Of a DNA stretch of 64,000 nucleotides, positions 547 through 11,690 are shown piece after piece. Positions within the stretch are counted from its first letter, which is position 1. Every line of letters begins with the position of its first letter. Made by a program: the position numbers and the translations under genes. The notes under the pieces are model-generated. The model was given only the letters and a program-made list of their open reading frames with translations. It ran no database searches and was not told the origin of the DNA. Source of the stretch: a virus; the IMG/VR virus record IMGVR_UViG_3300017917_002918, positions 1-64,000 of that record. One strand, given 5' to 3'.

Positions 547-1569
547 ATGAGCGAGATGAACGAGATTAACAAAAACATATTAAGAAAACCTGCTAAAAAA
601 GTAGATCCAATATCTAACGCTATGTGGAAACAAATCAATCCAGAAAACAGAGAGTTGGTTGAAGAATTTTTAAAAGTGAATAAACAATTAAGTTCTCAAT
701 CCGTAAAGCAATATATAACTTGTTTGCGTCAATTTTTCTACTATGTATATGAGAACTTAAAAGATAAAGTTTTCTATAAAATTACAAAACGTGACTTTAT
801 GAAGTATATGAGTTATTTGCAAGAAAGAGAGTTATCATCTAGTGCAATTGGAATTAAGAAGTCGGCGGTATCTAGTTTTTGTAACTATATCGAAAATGTT
901 GTTATGGATGATGTTGAAGAATATAAAGGATTTAGAAATTTCACTAGAGGTATGCCAGCAATAGCAAAGAACCAAACATATGAAAAAATAGCAATCAGTA
1001 AAGATGAATATGACATATTAATCGCAGAATTAGAGAAAAGAGAAGATTATTTAGGTTTAGCATGGGTGGCAACCGCTTTTAATGTTGGTAGTCGTAGAGC
1101 AGAAATTATTCAATTCAAAACTGAAATACTAAGTTACCCAATTCCAGAAAATCAAAACTATGTTCTTAGCCATATGGTTAGAGGTAAAGGTAAATCCGTT
1201 GACGGTAAGCCATTGCGTTATATGATAAATATGGATGCATTGAAGTATATGAAGTTATGGGTCGAGAAACGTGGATACGAAAGTGAATACATATTTACAG
1301 TGAAGTATTCAGGTCGAATCAAACATATTGGTACATCATGGGCAAATGACTTTTGTAAAAACACTCTCACACCGATTTTAGGTAGACGAATAAATCCTCA
1401 TTTATTTAAAGCATCTGCAATAACTTTTTTATTGGGTCAAGGTGTAGATTTAAAGATAGTTAGTAAATACGTTGCGCAACATAATGATACCTCCACTACC
1501 TCAAATTTCTATGATTTACGTGACTTTGAGGAAGAAAAAAATAATATATTTTCAAATCATAGTAATTAA
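547..1569 (+). CDS. Divergent tyrosine recombinase-fold protein inside the structural operon
   Basis: A 340-aa protein with an N-terminal SAM-like core-binding domain (residues about 45-130) and a C-terminal phage integrase domain. Arg I sits in GSRRAEI, a Lys in RGKGKS, His in AQHND and a Tyr in SNFYD. The canonical H-x-x-R box reads H-L-F-K, so catalytic Arg II is replaced by Lys. ATG 547 is preferred because GTTGGTGA lies four bases upstream; TTG 523 overlaps the previous gene. A recombinase between connector and tape measure genes is unusual. It may be a weakly active recombinase or a recombinase-fold regulator, as known for the SPbeta repressor MrpR. Activity is unknown. Confidence 0.65.
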   Translation: MSEMNEINKNILRKPAKKVDPISNAMWKQINPENRELVEEFLKVNKQLSSQSVKQYITCLRQFFYYVYENLKDKVFYKITKRDFMKYMSYLQERELSSSAIGIKKSAVSSFCNYIENVVMDDVEEYKGFRNFTRGMPAIAKNQTYEKIAISKDEYDILIAELEKREDYLGLAWVATAFNVGSRRAEIIQFKTEILSYPIPENQNYVLSHMVRGKGKSVDGKPLRYMINMDALKYMKLWVEKRGYESEYIFTVKYSGRIKHIGTSWANDFCKNTLTPILGRRINPHLFKASAITFLLGQGVDLKIVSKYVAQHNDTSTTSNFYDLRDFEEEKNNIFSNHSN

Positions 1570-1576
1570 ATTATAA
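1563..1576 (+). promoter_or_regulatory. Dispersed operator-like motif (copy overlapping a stop codon)
   Basis: TAATTAAATTATAA overlaps the stop codon of the recombinase-like gene and precedes the terminator at 1591. It has no -35 partner here. It belongs to the family described in the findings. Confidence 0.5.
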
Positions 1577-1590
1577 TTTTATAAAAAATA

Positions 1591-1625
1591 AAAGGAATGT
1601 TTTATTTGGATCATTCCTTTGTTGT
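1591..1625 (+). terminator. Hairpin terminator after the recombinase-like gene
   Basis: AAAGGAATG (1591-1599) pairs perfectly with CATTCCTTT (1612-1620), followed by a T-rich stretch. It lies between the recombinase-like gene and the tape measure gene, so it would reduce readthrough into the latter. Confidence 0.6.
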
Positions 1626-1658
1626 TTTATCCATAAACAGAGAGGAGTGATTATTACA

Positions 1659-4600
1659 ATGGCTGAAATACCAAACATTATTGTCGGTGTCAAACTGGAC
1701 ACTTCAAATATAGGTAAACAAGTAGAAGAAATTAGTAAGAAATTTGAAACGAAACCTATTAAGTTAGGTTTTGAATTTAAATTAACAAATGATAATATAA
1801 AACAACAAATGAAAGTCATACAAGACAAATTCGACAATGCAAAAATTAATACAAACATAACTGTTGGTATTAAAGTAGATAGTCGTATTGGCGATATAAA
1901 TAGACAAATTAACCAATTATCAAAACAAATAACCGAGCAATTAAGTGTTAAATTAAAAATAGATGCCAGTGATTTAAATATAATCACTGAAAAAACCAAG
2001 CGAGTCCAAGAACAAGTTCAAATTGCTATGTCACAAAAAAATGTAAAACAAACACCTATATCATATTCTTCTCGTGAATACGAAAGCAGTCTCTTGGGTA
2101 CAAAGAAATCAGATATAGACAAGGCTTTGGATGATGTAATTTCCTCATACAAAGGTAAATTAAGTGACATAAAAGTAAATTTAAATGAAAGCTTGGACAT
2201 TGGTTCAGTAGTTGTTAAATACAAAGATTCAACAGGTAAAATGATTCAAGAAACTATGAAATGGGTGGATGTTGTCGAAGGACAATCCAATAAAGCAAAA
2301 AAAGCATTCAAAACAGTAAGCACCCAAATTGTAGATGACATGAGAAAAGAAGAACAACAAAAAGAAGCAATTCGCAAAAGAGAAGAACAAGAACTTGCGT
2401 CAAGGCAGAAACGTATTGATAAGTTCAAAGATTCTACTTTAAACAGAATTAGTGAAATGGAATCAAAAGATTATAAATACGCTAATCAATTGCGATTTGT
2501 AACCCCAACGAGCCAAGGTAATGTCGAATTAAAAAAAATTAGAAGTGTTGTTGAGGCATTAAATGCATCTACCATATCTTCTAAACAATTCGATAAAGAA
2601 ATTAAAAATATAACAAATAGTATTGATAAGCTTGAAAATAAAGCAATTAAACTTTATAAAGAAATAGATCAAGAGGCTAAAAACGCCACTAGAGGTATAA
2701 AGGCAAGTTTTTCAATAACTCCATTGGGTGATTATAGTACTCCAGGGAAAAAAGCTGGTATACAAAATCCCGCCTCTTTTGAGAAATCAACGGAAGCCAC
2801 AAGAAAATATTTACAATTAATATCACAATTCTCAGGAAAAAAACTCGATTTTGGCATTTTTGAAAGTCAATTCTCTTCGAAACAAATGAAAGAGACTGGT
2901 CAATTGATGACTAACATTGGCGTAAGAGTTTGGCATACAAAAAAAAGATATGAAGATTTAACAGTAAGTTTAAATGATTCTGATAAGTCCTTTAGATATT
3001 TGTCAAAAAGTATAAAAAATGCAGGTTTAAAAGACTTAAACTTTTCAGGGCAATTTATTGAAAACTTAAAGAAATTCCCAATATGGCTAGGTACTGCAAC
3101 AATTGTTATGCAAGGGTTGGCGTTATTTAGAACGGGTGCACAATACATATATGAGATGGATAAAGCATTAACCGATTTGACTAAAGTTGTTGACTTGAGT
3201 ATACCACAAATGCATGAAATGACTAATGCTGCGGTTGCTATGGGTAACGCATACGGTAAATCATCTGTAGAGATAATGAAGTCTATGGCTGAGTTTGGTC
3301 GTGTAACAAAGAATACTGATGAGATTAAGAAATTAACTGAATCTGCTACATTAGCGTCAAATGTAACAACAATGACTGCTGACGTTGCAGCTAAAGCATT
3401 GAATACAACTATGATGGCATTTAAAATAAATGCTAAAGATTCGATGGGAATAGTTGACAAATGGAATGAGTTAAAGTTCTCCATAAGTGACTCCTTATAC
3501 AGTAATGTATATGTAAAATGCTAGAGTATCGGAAAAACTCTGTTATTATACAGACAATTCCGAGGTAAACCCTTATTCAAGGGAAACCGTAACGACTGCA
3601 ATTAGCTACCCTACAAAAGAGGGTAAAGGTACAGTCTGAACATCGTAAGCGATTACGAGAAACGGCAGAAATGACCGTTCGCCATAGTACATATGGTCTG
3701 TAACTTAAATTACATATTTAGGTGAAAGTAACAGAATTTGGCAAAACAACTATAGGGTCTCAAGCGAAGATTTAGCAGATTCAATAGGTATTACAGGTAA
3801 CGTTGCACAACAAACTGGAATGTCATTTGAAAAATTAAATGCCATCACAACTGCAATGATCGCAACTACGGGAGCTACGGGAAGTGAAGCGGGAACGGCA
3901 TATTTCTGTGCCATAACAGCATAATACATAAACTGTTATTCAAAATTTATTCTAATATACGGTGAAACCCTAGCGATAGGCAACACCTTCCAATTTTTAA
4001 TGTTAATTAAAAAGGGAACAACGACTGAACGAATAAACCACATTTATGATGTGGATGCGACAGTCTGAACTTACGCTATAATCTAAAAATGAAACGTAAG
4101 AGTTAGAGTCAAGTGTAACCAGACACTTATTGAAGAACTCTAACCGCCATGTAGCAATATATGGTCAGTAGTCTAATGTAAATTAGATGAAAGTAACAGA
4201 ATGTAAAATCAACACTTTCAAGACTTTTCCGTATTGGCGAAGAAGGGGCAGACGATGCAGGTAAATCGGAAGAAGCTTTAAACAAACTAGGCATATCTGT
4301 CAGAAAAAACGCAACAGAGTTTCGTAATGCTTCTGACATAGTAGATGATTTGGCTAAAAGATTCAAAACTATGACATCTGTTGAACAAATAGCAATAGCA
4401 CAACAACTTGCGGGTTAATAATATGGCTCGAAAATACAGTAATGTATCGTTGAAGTTGGCTTTTATCGGGAAACACGTAGACATACGCAATTCCGAGGAT
4501 AAGACTTGATGAATAATCAAGAATCCGTAACGAGTCAGTGATTGTAACAGCAATGTTATGATCCACGCCAACCCCCTATATAATAGGGAGTGACCAATAT

Positions 4601-7600
4601 TTGCTAATTATATGGTCAAATATACTCATATATAAGCAAACGTAAAGCTCCGCATATAGAGAAATCTGTATGTAGAAATAGATGACGTATAACAATCTAT
4701 TCAATATCTCAACAACTGCTGGCAATCCCTAAAGCTAACTAAACCACAACGTAAGTATGAAACAAGACTAAGCGTGAGGGTGACGAAAGTAGAAAAAATT
4801 AGTTAGATAGTGCATGGTTAAATCCTAAACACTGTAATAATGGGTCTTCAGCAACATATGTCCGAACAGGATACTGCTCAACGACTATCCCTCTTGAGGG
4901 GAGTAGAGTCAAGCGACTCGAAATGAGAGACTCCAGAAATGGATGATGATATAGTCTGTGCTCATATGAAAGTATGAGAAGTTCATAAGAGAACTGGTGT
5001 AGATTAGCGACCTACATTGAACACGCTAAAAATATATCAAATGTGTATATTTTTATTTATTCAAAAAACATCAAGAATTATTCTTGATGTTTGGATGCAA
5101 AGTCTTTAAGAACAGTAATTATTAAATTATTAAAACTTCGATTTTGCTCTTTAGCTATTTGTTCTAATTGTTGTTTTAGTTCTTTTGAAATTGTAATATT
5201 GGTGCGTGTGTTGTGTTCAGCTACATTACCTGCCATAACAATCCCTCCTTTTAAAATTATTATATCATATTAACACATTGTAGTCAATTAGATCCCAAAC
5301 TATTGACAAACTGATTACAGTATGGTATGATAATGTTAGAAAGTGAGGTGAGAAAATATGATTAAAGGAATCACAATTAGACTACACCCAGATGAAAAAC
5401 AAGAACAATTATTATGGAAACATGTTAACTGTGCTAGATTTGTTTGGAATTATGGTTTGCGATTACAACAAGAAAGATTCAAAAATAAGGAAAAACATCT
5501 AAGTGGATATGATTTGAGAAAAGAAATTATAGCCTTGAAGAAAACAGATGATTTTATATGGCTAAATGAGATTTCAAGTCATACAACATTTAATATTTGC
5601 TTAGACTTAGATGGTGCTTATGGTAGATTTTTCAAAAAGGTAACTGGCAAACCAAAATTCAAAAAGAAAAACAGGTGCAAAAATAGTTTCCCAGTAAGAC
5701 AAGATAATTTGTATTTTAAAAATAATTGTGCTGTAGTTGAAAAAATCGGTAAAATCAAATATCAATCGGACTATAAAATACCACAAGGCAGGTTTGTTTA
5801 TAAGTTTAGTAATCCAAGAATTAAGTTTGAGAACAACAAATGGATTATGACGATTGGTATGGAGTACGAGAACCAAGTACATAATTTAACCGATAAGAAA
5901 ATGGGAATAGATTTAGGAGTAAAAGAATTAGCTGTAGTATCCTTTGGAACTGAAAATATAGTTTTTAAAAATATCAATAAGACAAAGAGAGTTAAAACCT
6001 TAAAACATAAACTTAAACATCTACAGAAAGATGTTAATAGAAAATATGAAACCAATAATAAAAACAAGGTTTATGATAAAAAGTGGTCTAAGTCTAATGG
6101 TATAAAAAAACTAGAAAATCAGATAAAGGATATACATTGTAAACTATCAAATATTCGTAAGAACCACATTCATCAAAGCACTAATAGTCTCGTCAAGTTA
6201 TTGCCATATAAGATAACAATGGAAGACTTAAATATTAGTGGAATGATGAAAAACAGGCATCTATCTAAAGCAATAGCAGAACAATGTTTATATGAGTTCA
6301 CAAGACAAATTAAATATAAATGTGAATTTAATGGTATAGAATTTGTGCAAGTAGACAGATTTTATCCATCAAGTAAAACATGCTCTTGTTGTGGAAGCTT
6401 AAAGAAGGACTTAAAGCTAAAAGATAGAGTTTATAAGTGCAATTGTGGATTAGAAATTGATAGAGATTATAATGCGGCTATTAATTTAATGAATTATTCA
6501 AACGTTTGAAATATTGAGAGACGTTTGTCTTAGGGAAATTGGTGTATCCTTGAATGTTGCGGAGTGTTATATCAAATGAAAGTAGGTTTAACCGAAATCA
6601 GACACTATGAAACAACGAATAAATAAAAATGTACCCAAATGTGTATATTTTTAGCATCAGAAGATGGACTCTGAACTACACTATAATGTAAACAAGAAGG
6701 TGTAGAAGTGGCAGAAATGACCACTCGCCATAATGCTTATGGTCTGTAACTTTGGTAACAAAGTGAAAGTAACAGAATGACATACCATTACTCCAAGCTA
6801 ATCGGTGTACTTAACAATTATGATGTTGCACTAGAAGCAAATAAAATGCAATTACACTCACAAGGTTCTGCTTATTCCGAGAACCAGAAAAGAATGGATT
6901 CATTTGAGGGCAGGTTGGGAAAACTTAAAACAACTGTAGAAAGTTTCTGGAATTCTTCTATTAATTCAGACCTATTCAAAGGCATGATTTCTGGTTTAAC
7001 TGTTTTAATAGATAAGTTCGGTAATCTTGGGACTGTGTTATCGTTGATAGGCACTGGTTTAGCTCTTTGGAAAGGAAATGAAATTTTAAGTTTCTTCAAA
7101 ACCCTTCCTGCTTCAATTTCAACATCTATTAAAGAGATGACATTGTTTAAAAACATTGCTCTTGCCATGGAATTACGAGAATTGGGATTATTGACAACCA
7201 CTCAGCTATTAAGTAGTAGTTTCAAAGCTTTAGGTATTTCTATAAAAAATGCATTCTTATCTAATCCATTAGGCTGGATTGCAATGGGTTTTACGGCTGT
7301 TACAATGGCAGTGGATATGTTTGGTCAAAAAGCTGAAGAATCTAAGCAACAAATCAAGGATAGTATAGAAGCATATAAATCACTAAATACCGAAGTAGAT
7401 TCGCTTACTGCAACATACATAGAGATTGGAGATAAGTGGAAGACTGATAATGACGAAAAGAAAAAATTAATTGAAACAGAGACTAGACTCAAAGAGATAT
7501 TCGGAGAATCTGCAAAAGCATTAAATTTACAGACCGGAACAGTTGATGATAATATAAAGAAGTTTAAAGAACTAAAAGCGATTAAAGATGCTGAATTTTT

Positions 7601-10600
7601 GTTAGAAAACAAAACAAAAATAAACAATGCGAAAGATAGACTTTCGAGCTACAAGTCTGAGAGCTTTTTCTCGGATTCTCCAGCCGACACTTTGAATTTA
7701 GCTCCCGAGTTGTTAGGAAAAATATTTGCGGGCAATCCAAAACAAGTTTTAGCTCAATTAGAATCAGAATTAGCGTTGTTGGGAAAGAGACTTGACGAAG
7801 TTAAAGCAAAGGGAACTCCATTCGATGTGAACCAATACTCGTATTCTTTTGACTTAGTTAATGCCAAAATAAAAGAATATAAAGAAAATATCAAACCTGA
7901 TACCGATTTACTGGAACAGGCAGATCAAAAAGAAAAAGCTATTGCAGAAACTAAAATACTAAATCTTGATAAATTAAATGAAAAACAAACAGCAGTATAT
8001 ACTAATTTAAAAAATTTTGTAAAGTATAGTAATGCAGATCAATATCAAAAAGACTTACAACAAGTTCAGGTTATACTCTCTAGTTTTGATGGTAAAAATG
8101 TAGCAGAGGTTGAGCAACAACTTAGAGCAATAGCAAACTTACCAAATAAAGACATAGAAACAGTAATGAAATCTCTTGCCGATGGTACTTATAAATCTGG
8201 TAAATCTGCCGAAGAATCAAAAAAGGCAGAAGAAGAATTAAATAAAACAATATCAAATTCAATTAACAACATACAAACATTAAACTCTGCGCAGGATGAA
8301 TTAAATGAGAATCATAAGTTATCTACACAAACATTAGAATCAGTTGCAAATAAGTACCCTGAACTGTTGGCTTATATGAATGACGAAGTTCTGATGAGTC
8401 AAAAAATCCAAGAAAAAATAAAACAAGAAAAAGATGATTATGTTGATGCTAGTTATAAAAAAATAGAATCTAACCAAAGTTTTTTTGATAATGTCATCAA
8501 AAACGACAAAGAACTGTGGAGTACTTTAAGTGATGCTTATGGGGATGATTTAAAAAACTTTAAGTCATTAGAGGATGCAAAATTAGAGATAGATAACGAA
8601 ATATCTGCACAAATACTTACTAATTGGATGCAATTAGATGCAACGACAAAAGAAATAATGAGAACCAACATTGACCTGTTGGGGGAAGCGTTAGGATCAG
8701 ATGTCCCTAATGGGCAAGATTCATACGATTTGGCAATGAAAGCATCTACTGGAATGATGAAGGCTGGAGCAACAGAAGATGATGTCGCAAAGGCTGTCGA
8801 TAGTGGAGCTGCTTTAAAAGTAAATAAAATGAAAAAGGCACTCGATACCGCTAAAGCAAAAACAGATGAAATTTTTAGAAATGCTAATTTTGGAGACGGT
8901 AGAAAAAGTAGTGGTTCTACTAGTGCTGGTTCTTCTTCCCCAGCCATCAATGAAGAGGTATACAAAGTAGAAAAAGACCGTTACATGGGTTTAAATCAAG
9001 TTTTAACCTCAGTTAATAATTCGTTAGAAAAGAATCAAGCATTACAGAAAAATGCTACTATTGAAGAACGCGTTAAGTTAATAGCAGAAGAAATTGAACT
9101 GCTACGACAAAAACGCAAAGCTATTAATGACATTGCATGGGAACAAAGTCAGGAAGCAAAAGAGAAAAAGGCTTACCTTGAAAAGAATAATGTTAAATTT
9201 GATCAAAACGGTAACATTGACAAGGCATCCTACGACAGTGTAATTGACTCTATAGCCAACAACACAGAATCAATGAAACGTAAGGGTAATGCTACAAAAA
9301 TTGCTGAAAATAATCAACTCTTGAAAAATCTAGAACAGGCTAATAAAGATTACTTGAGTGCTACTGCTAATGCTGCAAAGAGTATCAATGAACGTGAAAG
9401 TTTAACTGGTGATATATTCGCTAAGCAAAATGATAAGACTAAAGCCGAGATAGAATCCGTACTTGCACCACTAGGGGAACACTTAACTGATTTGAATGAT
9501 CAGTTAACAGGACTGCAAAGTAAATATGATCTATTGGGTGAAAGTGAATTCGATTCAAAGATTGAGAATATTAATAAGCAAATAGTTAATCAAAAACTTG
9601 CATTAATTGATACTGATAAAGCGTTGTCTGAGCTAAGAGCTAAATACAATAAACAAGATACCAATGCCATTGAAAAAAAGGAAATACTAAAAGAAATTGT
9701 AAAGCTTGAAAATGATAGCCTTAGTATAAAAAAAACAATGGTTGCATTAGGTGATAAGCGAGCGGATCAGTTAAAAGAAGATACAGAAAAGGCACTTAAT
9801 GAAAAAGATTTAGCCATTGAGAAAATTGGAGAAATAGAAACAGAAGGTCAAATTGCAAAAAAAATTAGTTTAATCAAAGAAAAGATATCTGCGAGAACTG
9901 GTTATATAGATGAAGTAAATGCATATACGAAACGATTGGAATACAACAAAGAAAATGAAAAGTCAGATATATTTGTTTCACAAAACTCTACGGGCGCAAA
10001 ATATTTAAAAGAACTTCCAGCTATGCAAAAAGCAAATGCTAATGATTTAAAAGAAATTAATACTTTAAATCTTGAACTTGCTAAGAAACAAGTTGAAAAG
10101 TTCGATCTTGCCCTTGAAGAATTAAGTGCTACTACCAGTAAGTTTAAAGAAGAGTTGGACTTCTTAAAAGAATGGCAACCACAGAACTTTGAATCTATAA
10201 ACACATTGATTAGTGGTGTAATCACTAATACTCAGGCAGAAATTAATCAATTAAAGACTATGGAAACTTCCTATATCGCCAAACGTGATCAAGCTAGACA
10301 AGATGGTGACATAGAATCTTTTAAATTGTTTGATGACTTGTTGAAAAAGACATATCAAAATGAACAAAATAAGATCATGGAAAACGCCAAGTTGAAGAAG
10401 GAACAACTTCAAAACTCATTCTCTGAGCAGAATAGAAACATTGAAAAATTGCTATTTGGTGATTCTTCGCAAAAAGCAGAGCAAGATAGAATCAATTCAT
10501 TAAAAAAAGAACAAGACACCTACATTTCTGGCGAAGAAAAAGTGTATGCGTTAAATTTAATGCGAACGGAACTCAATAAATACAATAGTGACATACAGAA

Positions 10601-11690
10601 TAAAAAGATAACAATATATGATGCAGAATTAGATAGACTAGAAAAAATTGATAAAATAACTCGTGATGATCTAGATACTTTGAAGAAGAAAATTGAAATA
10701 AAACAACTTGAGTTAAAATTAGATAATTTGAGAGAAGAAAAGACAATTAAGGTTTTAAGAAAGCAAGCTGATGGTAAGTATGCTTGGAAATTTGAAGCAG
10801 ATCAAGGTGCAATCAACGAAACAGAGAGTCAACTAGCTTCTAGTAGAATCGATCTAATTAAAACTCAAAAAGACAAAAGTATCAAAGCACAAGAGGATGA
10901 TCTTAATCAAAAAATTGATTATATGAACGAAGTTAAGGAAATACAACAAAAAGCCTTAAACGGTGAATACAAAACGCAGGAAGAGTTCACGGCTGACATG
11001 ACTAGAGTTAATGGTAAATTAAGTACGAATTATAAAAATATGTGGTTTGGTATAACTTCAACTCAAGCAAATGCTTCTGTTCTAATGAATGATTATCAAA
11101 GTAATATTGTAACTTCTTATGCTACATTTACAACTAGCATGAAAGAACTTTCGGCTAGCTTATCTGAATCTGTACAGAATTCTGCAAACGCATTACTTAA
11201 TTCTGTTGCACAATTAGAAGAACTGGCTAGACGTGCTGAGGCTGCAAGGGCTACGATTACTGGTCAGGCTATGGTATCATTCACAGGAGGTTCTATAAAA
11301 AATGGCGTTCCTCAACCAGAAAATAGACCCTCTTCTAGTGCAAATATAAACACAACACTTAAAAATGCATGGACTAACATACAGGGTTATCATGCTGACG
11401 GGATAGAATCAGGAGCGGTAACTAAAAATGGAACATATATGTTACATGGATCTGAGTCTTCTCCTGAATGGGTGTTAACAACAGAACAAATGAAAACATT
11501 TATACGAAATATGGCTTCTAAAGCTTCATCTTCATTTACGATCAAGAAACCATTAGCACCTTCATTTTATAATAGTGGTGATACTTCCAATGTTAAATCT
11601 GAAGTGTACAGTTTTAACATTGATACAATTCAGACCAATGATGTTACTAACTTAATTAATAGTATGAAAAGAAAGATTAGATCTAATTAA
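1659..11690 (+). CDS. Tail tape measure protein, four exons split by three group I introns
   Basis: The tape measure protein sets tail length and forms the tail lumen scaffold. Exons reconstruct as 1659-3472, 3741-3901, 4204-4415 and 6780-11690: 7098 nt, exactly 2366 codons including stop. Across the joins the protein reads WNE|LQNNYRVSSEDLADS, GTA|LKSTLSRLFRIGEEG and QQLAG|TYHYSKLIGVLNN, restoring the conserved TP901-type tape measure core (residues about 490-760). Coiled coil precedes it, hydrophobic helices follow near 780-900, and a long coiled coil fills most of the rest. AGGAG near 1642 supports ATG 1659; GTG 1647 is too close to it. The intact reading frame across all exons argues the gene is functional after splicing. 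Confidence 0.9.
3473..3740 (+). ncRNA. Group I intron 1 in the tape measure gene (268 nt, no ORF)
   Basis: Core elements resemble group IA: CAATTCCGAG (P4 strand), GTAACGACT (5' strand of P7) and CAGTCTGAAC (3' strand of P7). The 5' exon ends GAGTT, and the internal guide GACTC just inside the intron pairs with it, leaving the expected U.G at the splice site. The intron ends in G (3740) after GAAAGTAACAG. Splicing restores the frame in phase 2. It encodes no endonuclease, so mobility would need one in trans. Confidence 0.88.
3902..4203 (+). ncRNA. Group I intron 2 in the tape measure gene (302 nt, no ORF)
   Basis: The 5' exon ends GGCAT and the guide GTGCC lies within the first dozen bases, pairing with a terminal U.G. 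P7 strands AACGACT and CAGTCTGAAC are present, and the end GAAAGTAACAGAATG matches introns 1 and 3. Splicing is in phase 1 and joins GTA to LKSTLSRLF. Common 3' ends suggest the three introns share ancestry. Confidence 0.87.
5078..5236 (-). CDS. Small ribbon-helix-helix protein inside the IStron
   Basis: A 52-aa gene reading MAGNVAEHNTRTNITISKEL at its start, a typical Arc/CopG-type beta strand (RTNITISKEL) followed by two helices. It has a strong AGGAGGG site seven bases upstream and its own promoter, and runs divergently from tnpB. Its last codons lie in a perfect hairpin (5070-5089) that may end transcription. Such proteins usually bind operators as dimers, so it may repress itself and tnpB. 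It occupies the place where tnpA would be expected; a role in mobility is speculation. Confidence 0.75.
   Translation of the reverse strand: MAGNVAEHNTRTNITISKELKQQLEQIAKEQNRSFNNLIITVLKDFASKHQE
5259..5287 (-). promoter_or_regulatory. Promoter of the small RHH gene
   Basis: On the minus strand, TTGACT (5282-5287) and TATAAT (5259-5264) with a 17-bp spacer. It lies back to back with the tnpB promoter at 5303. Confidence 0.75.
5303..5331 (+). promoter_or_regulatory. tnpB promoter
   Basis: TTGACA (5303-5308), 17-bp spacer, TATGAT (5326-5331), followed by a GAGGTGA site ahead of tnpB. Only 15 bp separate it from the divergent RHH promoter, so one bound protein could control both. Confidence 0.75.
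5358..6509 (+). CDS. tnpB: TnpB, RNA-guided RuvC nuclease of the IStron
   Basis: A full-length 383-aa TnpB. The N-terminal helix-turn-helix/WED region is recognisable (R-F-V-W-N-Y near residue 30). RuvC motifs are complete: Asp in KMGIDLGV (about 186), Glu in ITMEDLNISG (about 290) and Asp in EIDRDYNAA (about 373). A four-cysteine zinc ribbon, TCSCCG...YKCNCG, lies between the last two. TnpB proteins use a transposon-end RNA to cut empty target sites and so favour retention of the element. The gene sits inside the inner group I intron, so intron splicing and guide RNA formation would draw on the same transcript. Confidence 0.93.
   Translation: MIKGITIRLHPDEKQEQLLWKHVNCARFVWNYGLRLQQERFKNKEKHLSGYDLRKEIIALKKTDDFIWLNEISSHTTFNICLDLDGAYGRFFKKVTGKPKFKKKNRCKNSFPVRQDNLYFKNNCAVVEKIGKIKYQSDYKIPQGRFVYKFSNPRIKFENNKWIMTIGMEYENQVHNLTDKKMGIDLGVKELAVVSFGTENIVFKNINKTKRVKTLKHKLKHLQKDVNRKYETNNKNKVYDKKWSKSNGIKKLENQIKDIHCKLSNIRKNHIHQSTNSLVKLLPYKITMEDLNISGMMKNRHLSKAIAEQCLYEFTRQIKYKCEFNGIEFVQVDRFYPSSKTCSCCGSLKKDLKLKDRVYKCNCGLEIDRDYNAAINLMNYSNV
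6510..6660 (+). ncRNA. Probable right-end guide RNA (omegaRNA) region of the IStron
   Basis: TnpB guide RNAs are processed from the 3' end of tnpB and the transposon right end. This 150-bp stretch has no ORF, contains the inner intron's 3' end and finishes in an AT-rich hairpin (6624-6652). The guide would start after 6660 in outer intron sequence. This rests on family knowledge; no processing signal can be proved here. Confidence 0.45.

Follow-up and report, generated by a model that had tools for sequence, protein, structure and literature searches.

A group B IStron inside a group I intron of a phage tape measure gene: a probable twintron with predicted inner-first splicing

The DNA analysed here (the window) comprises positions 1 to 64,000 of IMGVR_UViG_3300017917_002918, an uncultivated virus record of 167,401 bases. 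Its tape measure gene, located inside the first 12 kb, contains a group I intron (4416-6779) whose core is split by a TnpB-encoding IStron. We consider it probable that the two form a group I-in-group I twintron, in which a group B (IS607-type) IStron sits in the tape measure intron, the inner intron is spliced before the outer one and guide-RNA formation conflicts with splicing. The nesting itself had been claimed in a preliminary description of this DNA, and is borne out by the spliced reading frame, the anatomy of the IStron and the restoration of the outer core. IStrons and twintrons are each already known; what we did not find elsewhere, in the literature searched or among 18 related IStron loci, is a group I-in-group I nesting made by an IStron in a phage.

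The tape measure gene and its three group I introns are organized as follows, intron 3 being given in its two outer halves:
1660 to 11690, plus strand: tape measure gene, spliced product of 2365 amino acids (from frame and homologues)
3473 to 3740, plus strand: group I intron 1 (frame restored by removal; helices; same family as outer intron 3)
3902 to 4203, plus strand: group I intron 2 (frame, helices)
4416 to 4590, plus strand: outer intron 3, 5' half, with the P1 internal guide sequence GCTCG and P2-P8 (frame, fold, helices)
6661 to 6779, plus strand: outer intron 3, 3' half, with J8/7, P7', P9-P9.3 and the 3' splice site (alignment with intron 1)
The gene was assigned by weak matches to PhageMin_Tail and TMP_2, and its closest relatives are found in large Bacillus and Lactococcus phages (about 30% identity). 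Excision of 3473-3740, 3902-4203 and 4416-6779 yields a single stop-free frame of 2365 codons. The resulting exon joins, VDKWNE-LQNNYRVSS, GSEAGTA-LKSTLSRL and IAQQLAG-TYHYSKL, lie in conserved blocks that are unbroken in five intron-less phage tape measure homologues. In introns 1, 2 and 3, P1 places a U-G pair at the splice site (GAGTT/GACTC, GGCAT/GTGCC and CGGGT/GCTCG, respectively); direct comparison of helices identifies P2 to P9.3 in introns 1, 2 and outer intron 3, which also share the 3' end GAAAGTAACAGAAT.

Using intron 1 as template, the split core of outer intron 3 can be reassembled from three further elements:
4532 to 4536, plus strand: outer P7 5' strand GAGTC (pairs with 6667-6671)
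6667 to 6671, plus strand: outer P7 3' strand GACTC (pairs with 4532-4536)
4574 to 4588, plus strand: outer P8 hairpin CCCTAT-ata-ATAGGG (sequence, helix check)
The P7 strands were located solely by homology to intron 1, the first after CCGTAAC and the second before TGAAC. As the preliminary description stated, they lie about 2 kb (2.1 kb) apart; all five pairs form, and two of the five are double compensatory swaps relative to GACTG/CAGTC of intron 1. When position 4590 is joined to 6661, the sequence reads AGGGAG-AAGATG-GACTCTGAAC, which equals AGGGTA-AAGGTA-CAGTCTGAAC of intron 1 in length and corresponds to it base for base. The joined outer intron aligns with intron 1 at z = 12 (3' half z = 10.9, 5' half z = 6.0; mononucleotide shuffles), the 3' half being 79% identical over 80 bases, and it folds at z = -4.7 with P2-P6, P8 and P9 formed. 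It has the hallmarks of a group I intron: a P1 whose U-G pair marks the 5' splice site, the helices P3-P8 and P7, and a terminal G (G6779). The insert abuts the J8/7 hexamer at its 5' edge, falling precisely between J8/7 and outer P8 and separating them by 2.07 kb. The inner intron therefore breaks the functional structure of the outer one, as in a twintron in the strict sense, which would in addition require the inner unit to splice first, a likely order here.

The inserted element carries tnpB and no transposase gene. Its ribozyme part and its boundaries are listed here, its genes below:
4586 to 4590, plus strand: insertion target GGGAG, the likely TnpB target-adjacent motif and end of the inner 5' exon (NGGAG in relatives)
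4591 to 6660, plus strand: inner IStron, group B type, TnpB-only (anatomy, relatives, covariation)
4647 to 4651, plus strand: inner internal guide sequence GCTCC, which forms inner P1 with G4587-T4591 (sequence; conserved in relative L017)
4648 to 5027, plus strand: inner IA2-type group I core, as far as the GAACAC motif at 5022-5027 (covariation)
5028 to 5062, plus strand: left AT-rich inverted repeat of the IStron (sequence)
6617 to 6656, plus strand: right AT-rich inverted repeat of the IStron (sequence)
The pairing of GCTCC (4647) with GGAGT ending at 4591, proposed earlier, is seen in the sequence. Within the inner core 37 of 101 pairs show double changes among six sequences, and the core is 72-84% identical to IStron cores, with matches in phages and Clostridium. 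The element ends in CATCAG, and together with its GGGAG target this fits the GG or AG targets and CGG or CAG ends of group B. It shares the IA2-type core, a U as first intron base, a GAAC-type motif, AT-rich inverted repeats and an IS607-type open reading frame (ORF) B with the CsISt1- and CbISt-like group B IStrons defined by Tourasse et al. 2014 (PMC4227781), and the AG target and CAG end with CsISt1, and we assign it to group B on these features. Unlike those IStrons, which reside in ORFs or intergenic DNA, it is hosted by another group I intron. Self-splicing of the inner IStron is predicted.

The exactness of these ends also bears on the concern that an IStron contig was misjoined into the outer intron during assembly. 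The record is an uncultivated virus contig and a second genome with the same insertion was not found; yet the ends are the exact IStron termini at the expected AG site, and outer intron sequence is neither lost nor duplicated. Since a chance chimera would not give exact IStron termini at an AG site, we regard such an artefact as extremely improbable.

As to the inner 5' boundary, removal of 4592-6660 had been proposed to rebuild an outer P8-P7 junction like that of intron 1. The rebuilding and the 3' end at 6660 stand, but the intron starts one base earlier, at 4591. In the relatives at loci L016 (in a terminase gene) and L019, the host frame is maintained only when the T following GGAG is assigned to the intron, and keeping it leads to a stop within 13 codons; in L017 a frame from an upstream ATG likewise requires its removal. 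L021, L022 and L025 do not enter this comparison. The same three relatives confirm the 3' end at 6660. A start at 4592 is accordingly ruled out by the host frames of L016 and L019, with L017 in agreement, and by homology with these relatives we infer that T4591 is intronic in the window and that the inner intron spans 4591-6660. This agrees with what has been published on splicing in group B IStrons, where a U after the G-ending target is the first intron base, and splicing after a G was shown experimentally for BcISt1 (PMC4227781). Inner splicing should thus follow a G here as well. By their frames, relatives would be spliced in frame out of terminase and other genes. The close one at L016 (1841-3712) interrupts the terminase gene of a phage in frame; its contig also carries, 2 kb further downstream (5690-5900), a HEARO RNA with an HNH-type ORF.

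A likely order of splicing is suggested by the position of the insert and by bases that the two ribozymes share. In outer P8 the partners of G4587 and G4588 are C4575 and C4574; in inner P1 they are C4651 and C4650, and the two helices therefore compete. Because inner P1 draws on outer P8 bases and outer J8/7-P7' is 2.1 kb away from P8, inner-first splicing is likely, and it is plausible that the outer intron folds only once the inner one is gone. In the proposed sequence of events, a group B IStron would have entered a small outer intron at its P8/J8-7 junction, after an AG dinucleotide. The inner ribozyme would splice first, after G4590 and after G6660, whereupon the outer ribozyme would fold and join the tape measure exons. 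Alternatively, the outer intron might tolerate the 2.07-kb insert and splice as a unit with the IStron, inner splicing being optional. Many nested introns need no inner splicing, composite 'zombie' twintrons are removed whole (PMC8393795), and the IStron inverted repeats could draw the element ends together. However, the insert lies at the P8/J8-7 junction in the catalytic core, outside the peripheral loops, and outer P8 bases are taken by inner P1, which leaves order-independent nesting rather unlikely.

Other points likewise count against the inner-first twintron. Splicing of both introns and its order are predicted from the DNA sequence, and some nested introns are processed as a single unit (PMC8393795). 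The outer-family helix strands were picked by hand, apart from P7, which rests on homology. Neither scans of tape measure genes nor the pattern of target motif plus guide revealed an empty-site allele in related phages. Finally, the Rfam model Intron_gpI misses all four group I cores in window 3473-6779, even at E up to 5; surveys based on Intron_gpI would therefore miss this intron family.

Between the outer P7 strands, the second group I core is followed by a divergent RHH gene and a full-length tnpB, all of which the preliminary description had named correctly:
5078 to 5236, minus strand: RHH (Arc/CopG-like) gene, divergent from tnpB (sequence)
5358 to 6509, plus strand: tnpB, 383 amino acids, IS607 type, full length (sequence, residues)
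6556 to 6618, plus strand: RAGATH-18 RNA, the guide-RNA scaffold (motif match, 61.9 bits)
6661 to 6680, plus strand: predicted 20-nucleotide TnpB guide AAGATGGACTCTGAACTACA, identical to outer J8/7 plus the P7' strand (from its position after the element end)
TnpB keeps the RuvC residues, i.e. the invariant D185, E289 and the D368/D370 pair, as well as intact zinc-ribbon residues; its nearest solved structure is 8iaz, and it is predicted to be an RNA-guided DNA nuclease. One could still suppose that the IStron no longer functions or that the outer intron is inactive, the tape measure protein being made in two pieces or absent. Splicing is, after all, predicted from the DNA, and an ATG at the outer 3' splice site opens a frame of 1637 codons. 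This ATG, however, is not preceded by a convincing ribosome-binding site, and neither of the cores nor any of the splice sites, TnpB residues or exon frames is disrupted, which makes this explanation highly improbable.

RAGATH-18 is the guide-RNA scaffold of IS607-type TnpB, for which AGGAG or GAGGG was reported as target-adjacent motif and 20 nucleotides as best guide length (PMC11061315). The present element resembles ISFba1, the IS607 element of that work, in TnpB type, in the scaffold RNA downstream of tnpB and in a G-rich target-adjacent motif at the left end; it differs in its flanking group I core and in a guide that lies inside the core of a second ribozyme, and its cleavage activity is a prediction. 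In the rebuilt outer site the predicted guide AAGATGGACTCTGAACTACA adjoins GGGAG. TnpB would capture the RAGATH-18 RNA from the same transcript with outer J8/7-P7' as guide, and guide-RNA formation across 6660/6661 would withdraw that transcript from both splicing steps. Such competition between guide-RNA production and splicing is inferred from the fact that scaffold and guide span the 3' splice site and outer P7'. In Clostridium botulinum IStrons, splicing and guide-RNA production reportedly draw on one transcript and conflict (Zedaveinyte et al. 2024). Unlike there, the guide RNA here would also take away part of the outer intron. As the guide is outer J8/7-P7' next to GGAG, the TnpB complex should leave the occupied site alone and cleave outer-intron copies that lack the insert (GGAG plus guide match) in co-infecting phages, which would favour spread or retention of the IStron in the manner of a homing endonuclease. 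Taken as a whole, the proposal that this is the first group I-in-group I twintron from a phage, with inner-first splicing as an obligatory step, J8/7-P7' as guide, three-way competition for the transcript and homing on empty outer introns, is tentative, its chances being somewhat below even.

The RHH gene occupies the place expected for ORF A in group B IStrons and, unlike in those elements, ORF A is here replaced by this antisense gene. Divergent from and directly upstream of IS607-type tnpB, such a gene also occurs in at least seven other loci, with or without a group I core, and is probably a conserved regulator of tnpB. Its copies on the minus strand are:
L094, 2755 to 2916
L060, 2758 to 2964
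L044, 2757 to 2930
L058, 887 to 1051
L057, 659 to 829
L053/L054, 2768 to 2941
L024, 3696 to 3911
The same phage contains a complete IS607-type element with serine recombinase, tnpB and RAGATH-18, and without a group I core (L159, about 1030-3120; genome 116.5-118.6 kb, minus strand). Because this serine recombinase is present in the same genome, mobilization of the IStron in trans is conceivable.

Nested group I ribozymes are known from other systems. Fungal mitochondrial group I-in-group I twintrons (PMC8393795) also place two nested group I cores in one interruption of a protein gene, but they are found in organelles rather than a phage, and the inner intron here is borne by a transposon that encodes an RNA-guided nuclease in place of a homing endonuclease. 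The twin-ribozyme introns of Didymium and Naegleria (PMC3679873) likewise contain a second group I-like ribozyme within a group I intron that splices. Their inner ribozyme serves to cap an mRNA and is housed in a peripheral helix (P2 in Didymium), whereas the one described here is a splicing intron in the core. The Trichodesmium twintron cited in PMC8393795 is a bacterial example of nested introns with ordered splicing, though of group II rather than group I.

To gauge how unusual the arrangement is, we considered the related IStron loci whose 3' ends could be read, 18 besides the present one, counting L016/L017, which recur as L028/L029, once. A group I P7' motif was present downstream in none of them; at least 50 open codons directly follow the element in 16, and the remaining two are intergenic (L020) or at or near the end of a terminase-like gene (L033). 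Conversely, RAGATH-18 was found upstream in none of 120 among the matches listed to intron P7' sites (AACGG closely followed by AGTCTGAAC). Both checks would miss IStrons elsewhere within an outer intron. In the literature searched, which leaves out most subscription papers, we found no group I-in-group I twintron that occurs in a phage or involves an IStron.

The tape measure gene itself seems to be a hot spot for introns. In Geobacillus virus E3 an intron occupies almost the same position as intron 1, and the outer intron family recurs in the tape measure genes of other phages (L113, L114, L116-L121; L011 at about 3410-3710), inserted 7 to 22 bases away from the sites of introns 2 and 3 and in some cases adjoining a second group I intron. 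About three tandem group I intron cores with short spacers, one of them related to the IStron core, occur in L160 (700-1750; genome about 161.7-162.75 kb, plus strand) downstream of a structural-protein-like ORF. Immediately upstream of the tape measure gene, at 523-1569 of the window, lies a tyrosine-recombinase-like gene, an unusual spot for an integrase.

In conclusion, the locus indicates that another intron can serve as landing place for an IStron. It represents a compact natural case in which two self-splicing RNAs probably have to work one after the other, in a fixed sequence, before a structural gene becomes readable, and in which an RNA-guided nuclease would take its guide from a ribozyme core. 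The order in which the nested ribozymes fold and the proposed guide-RNA conflict with splicing can both be tested in vitro on one 2.5-kb transcript.
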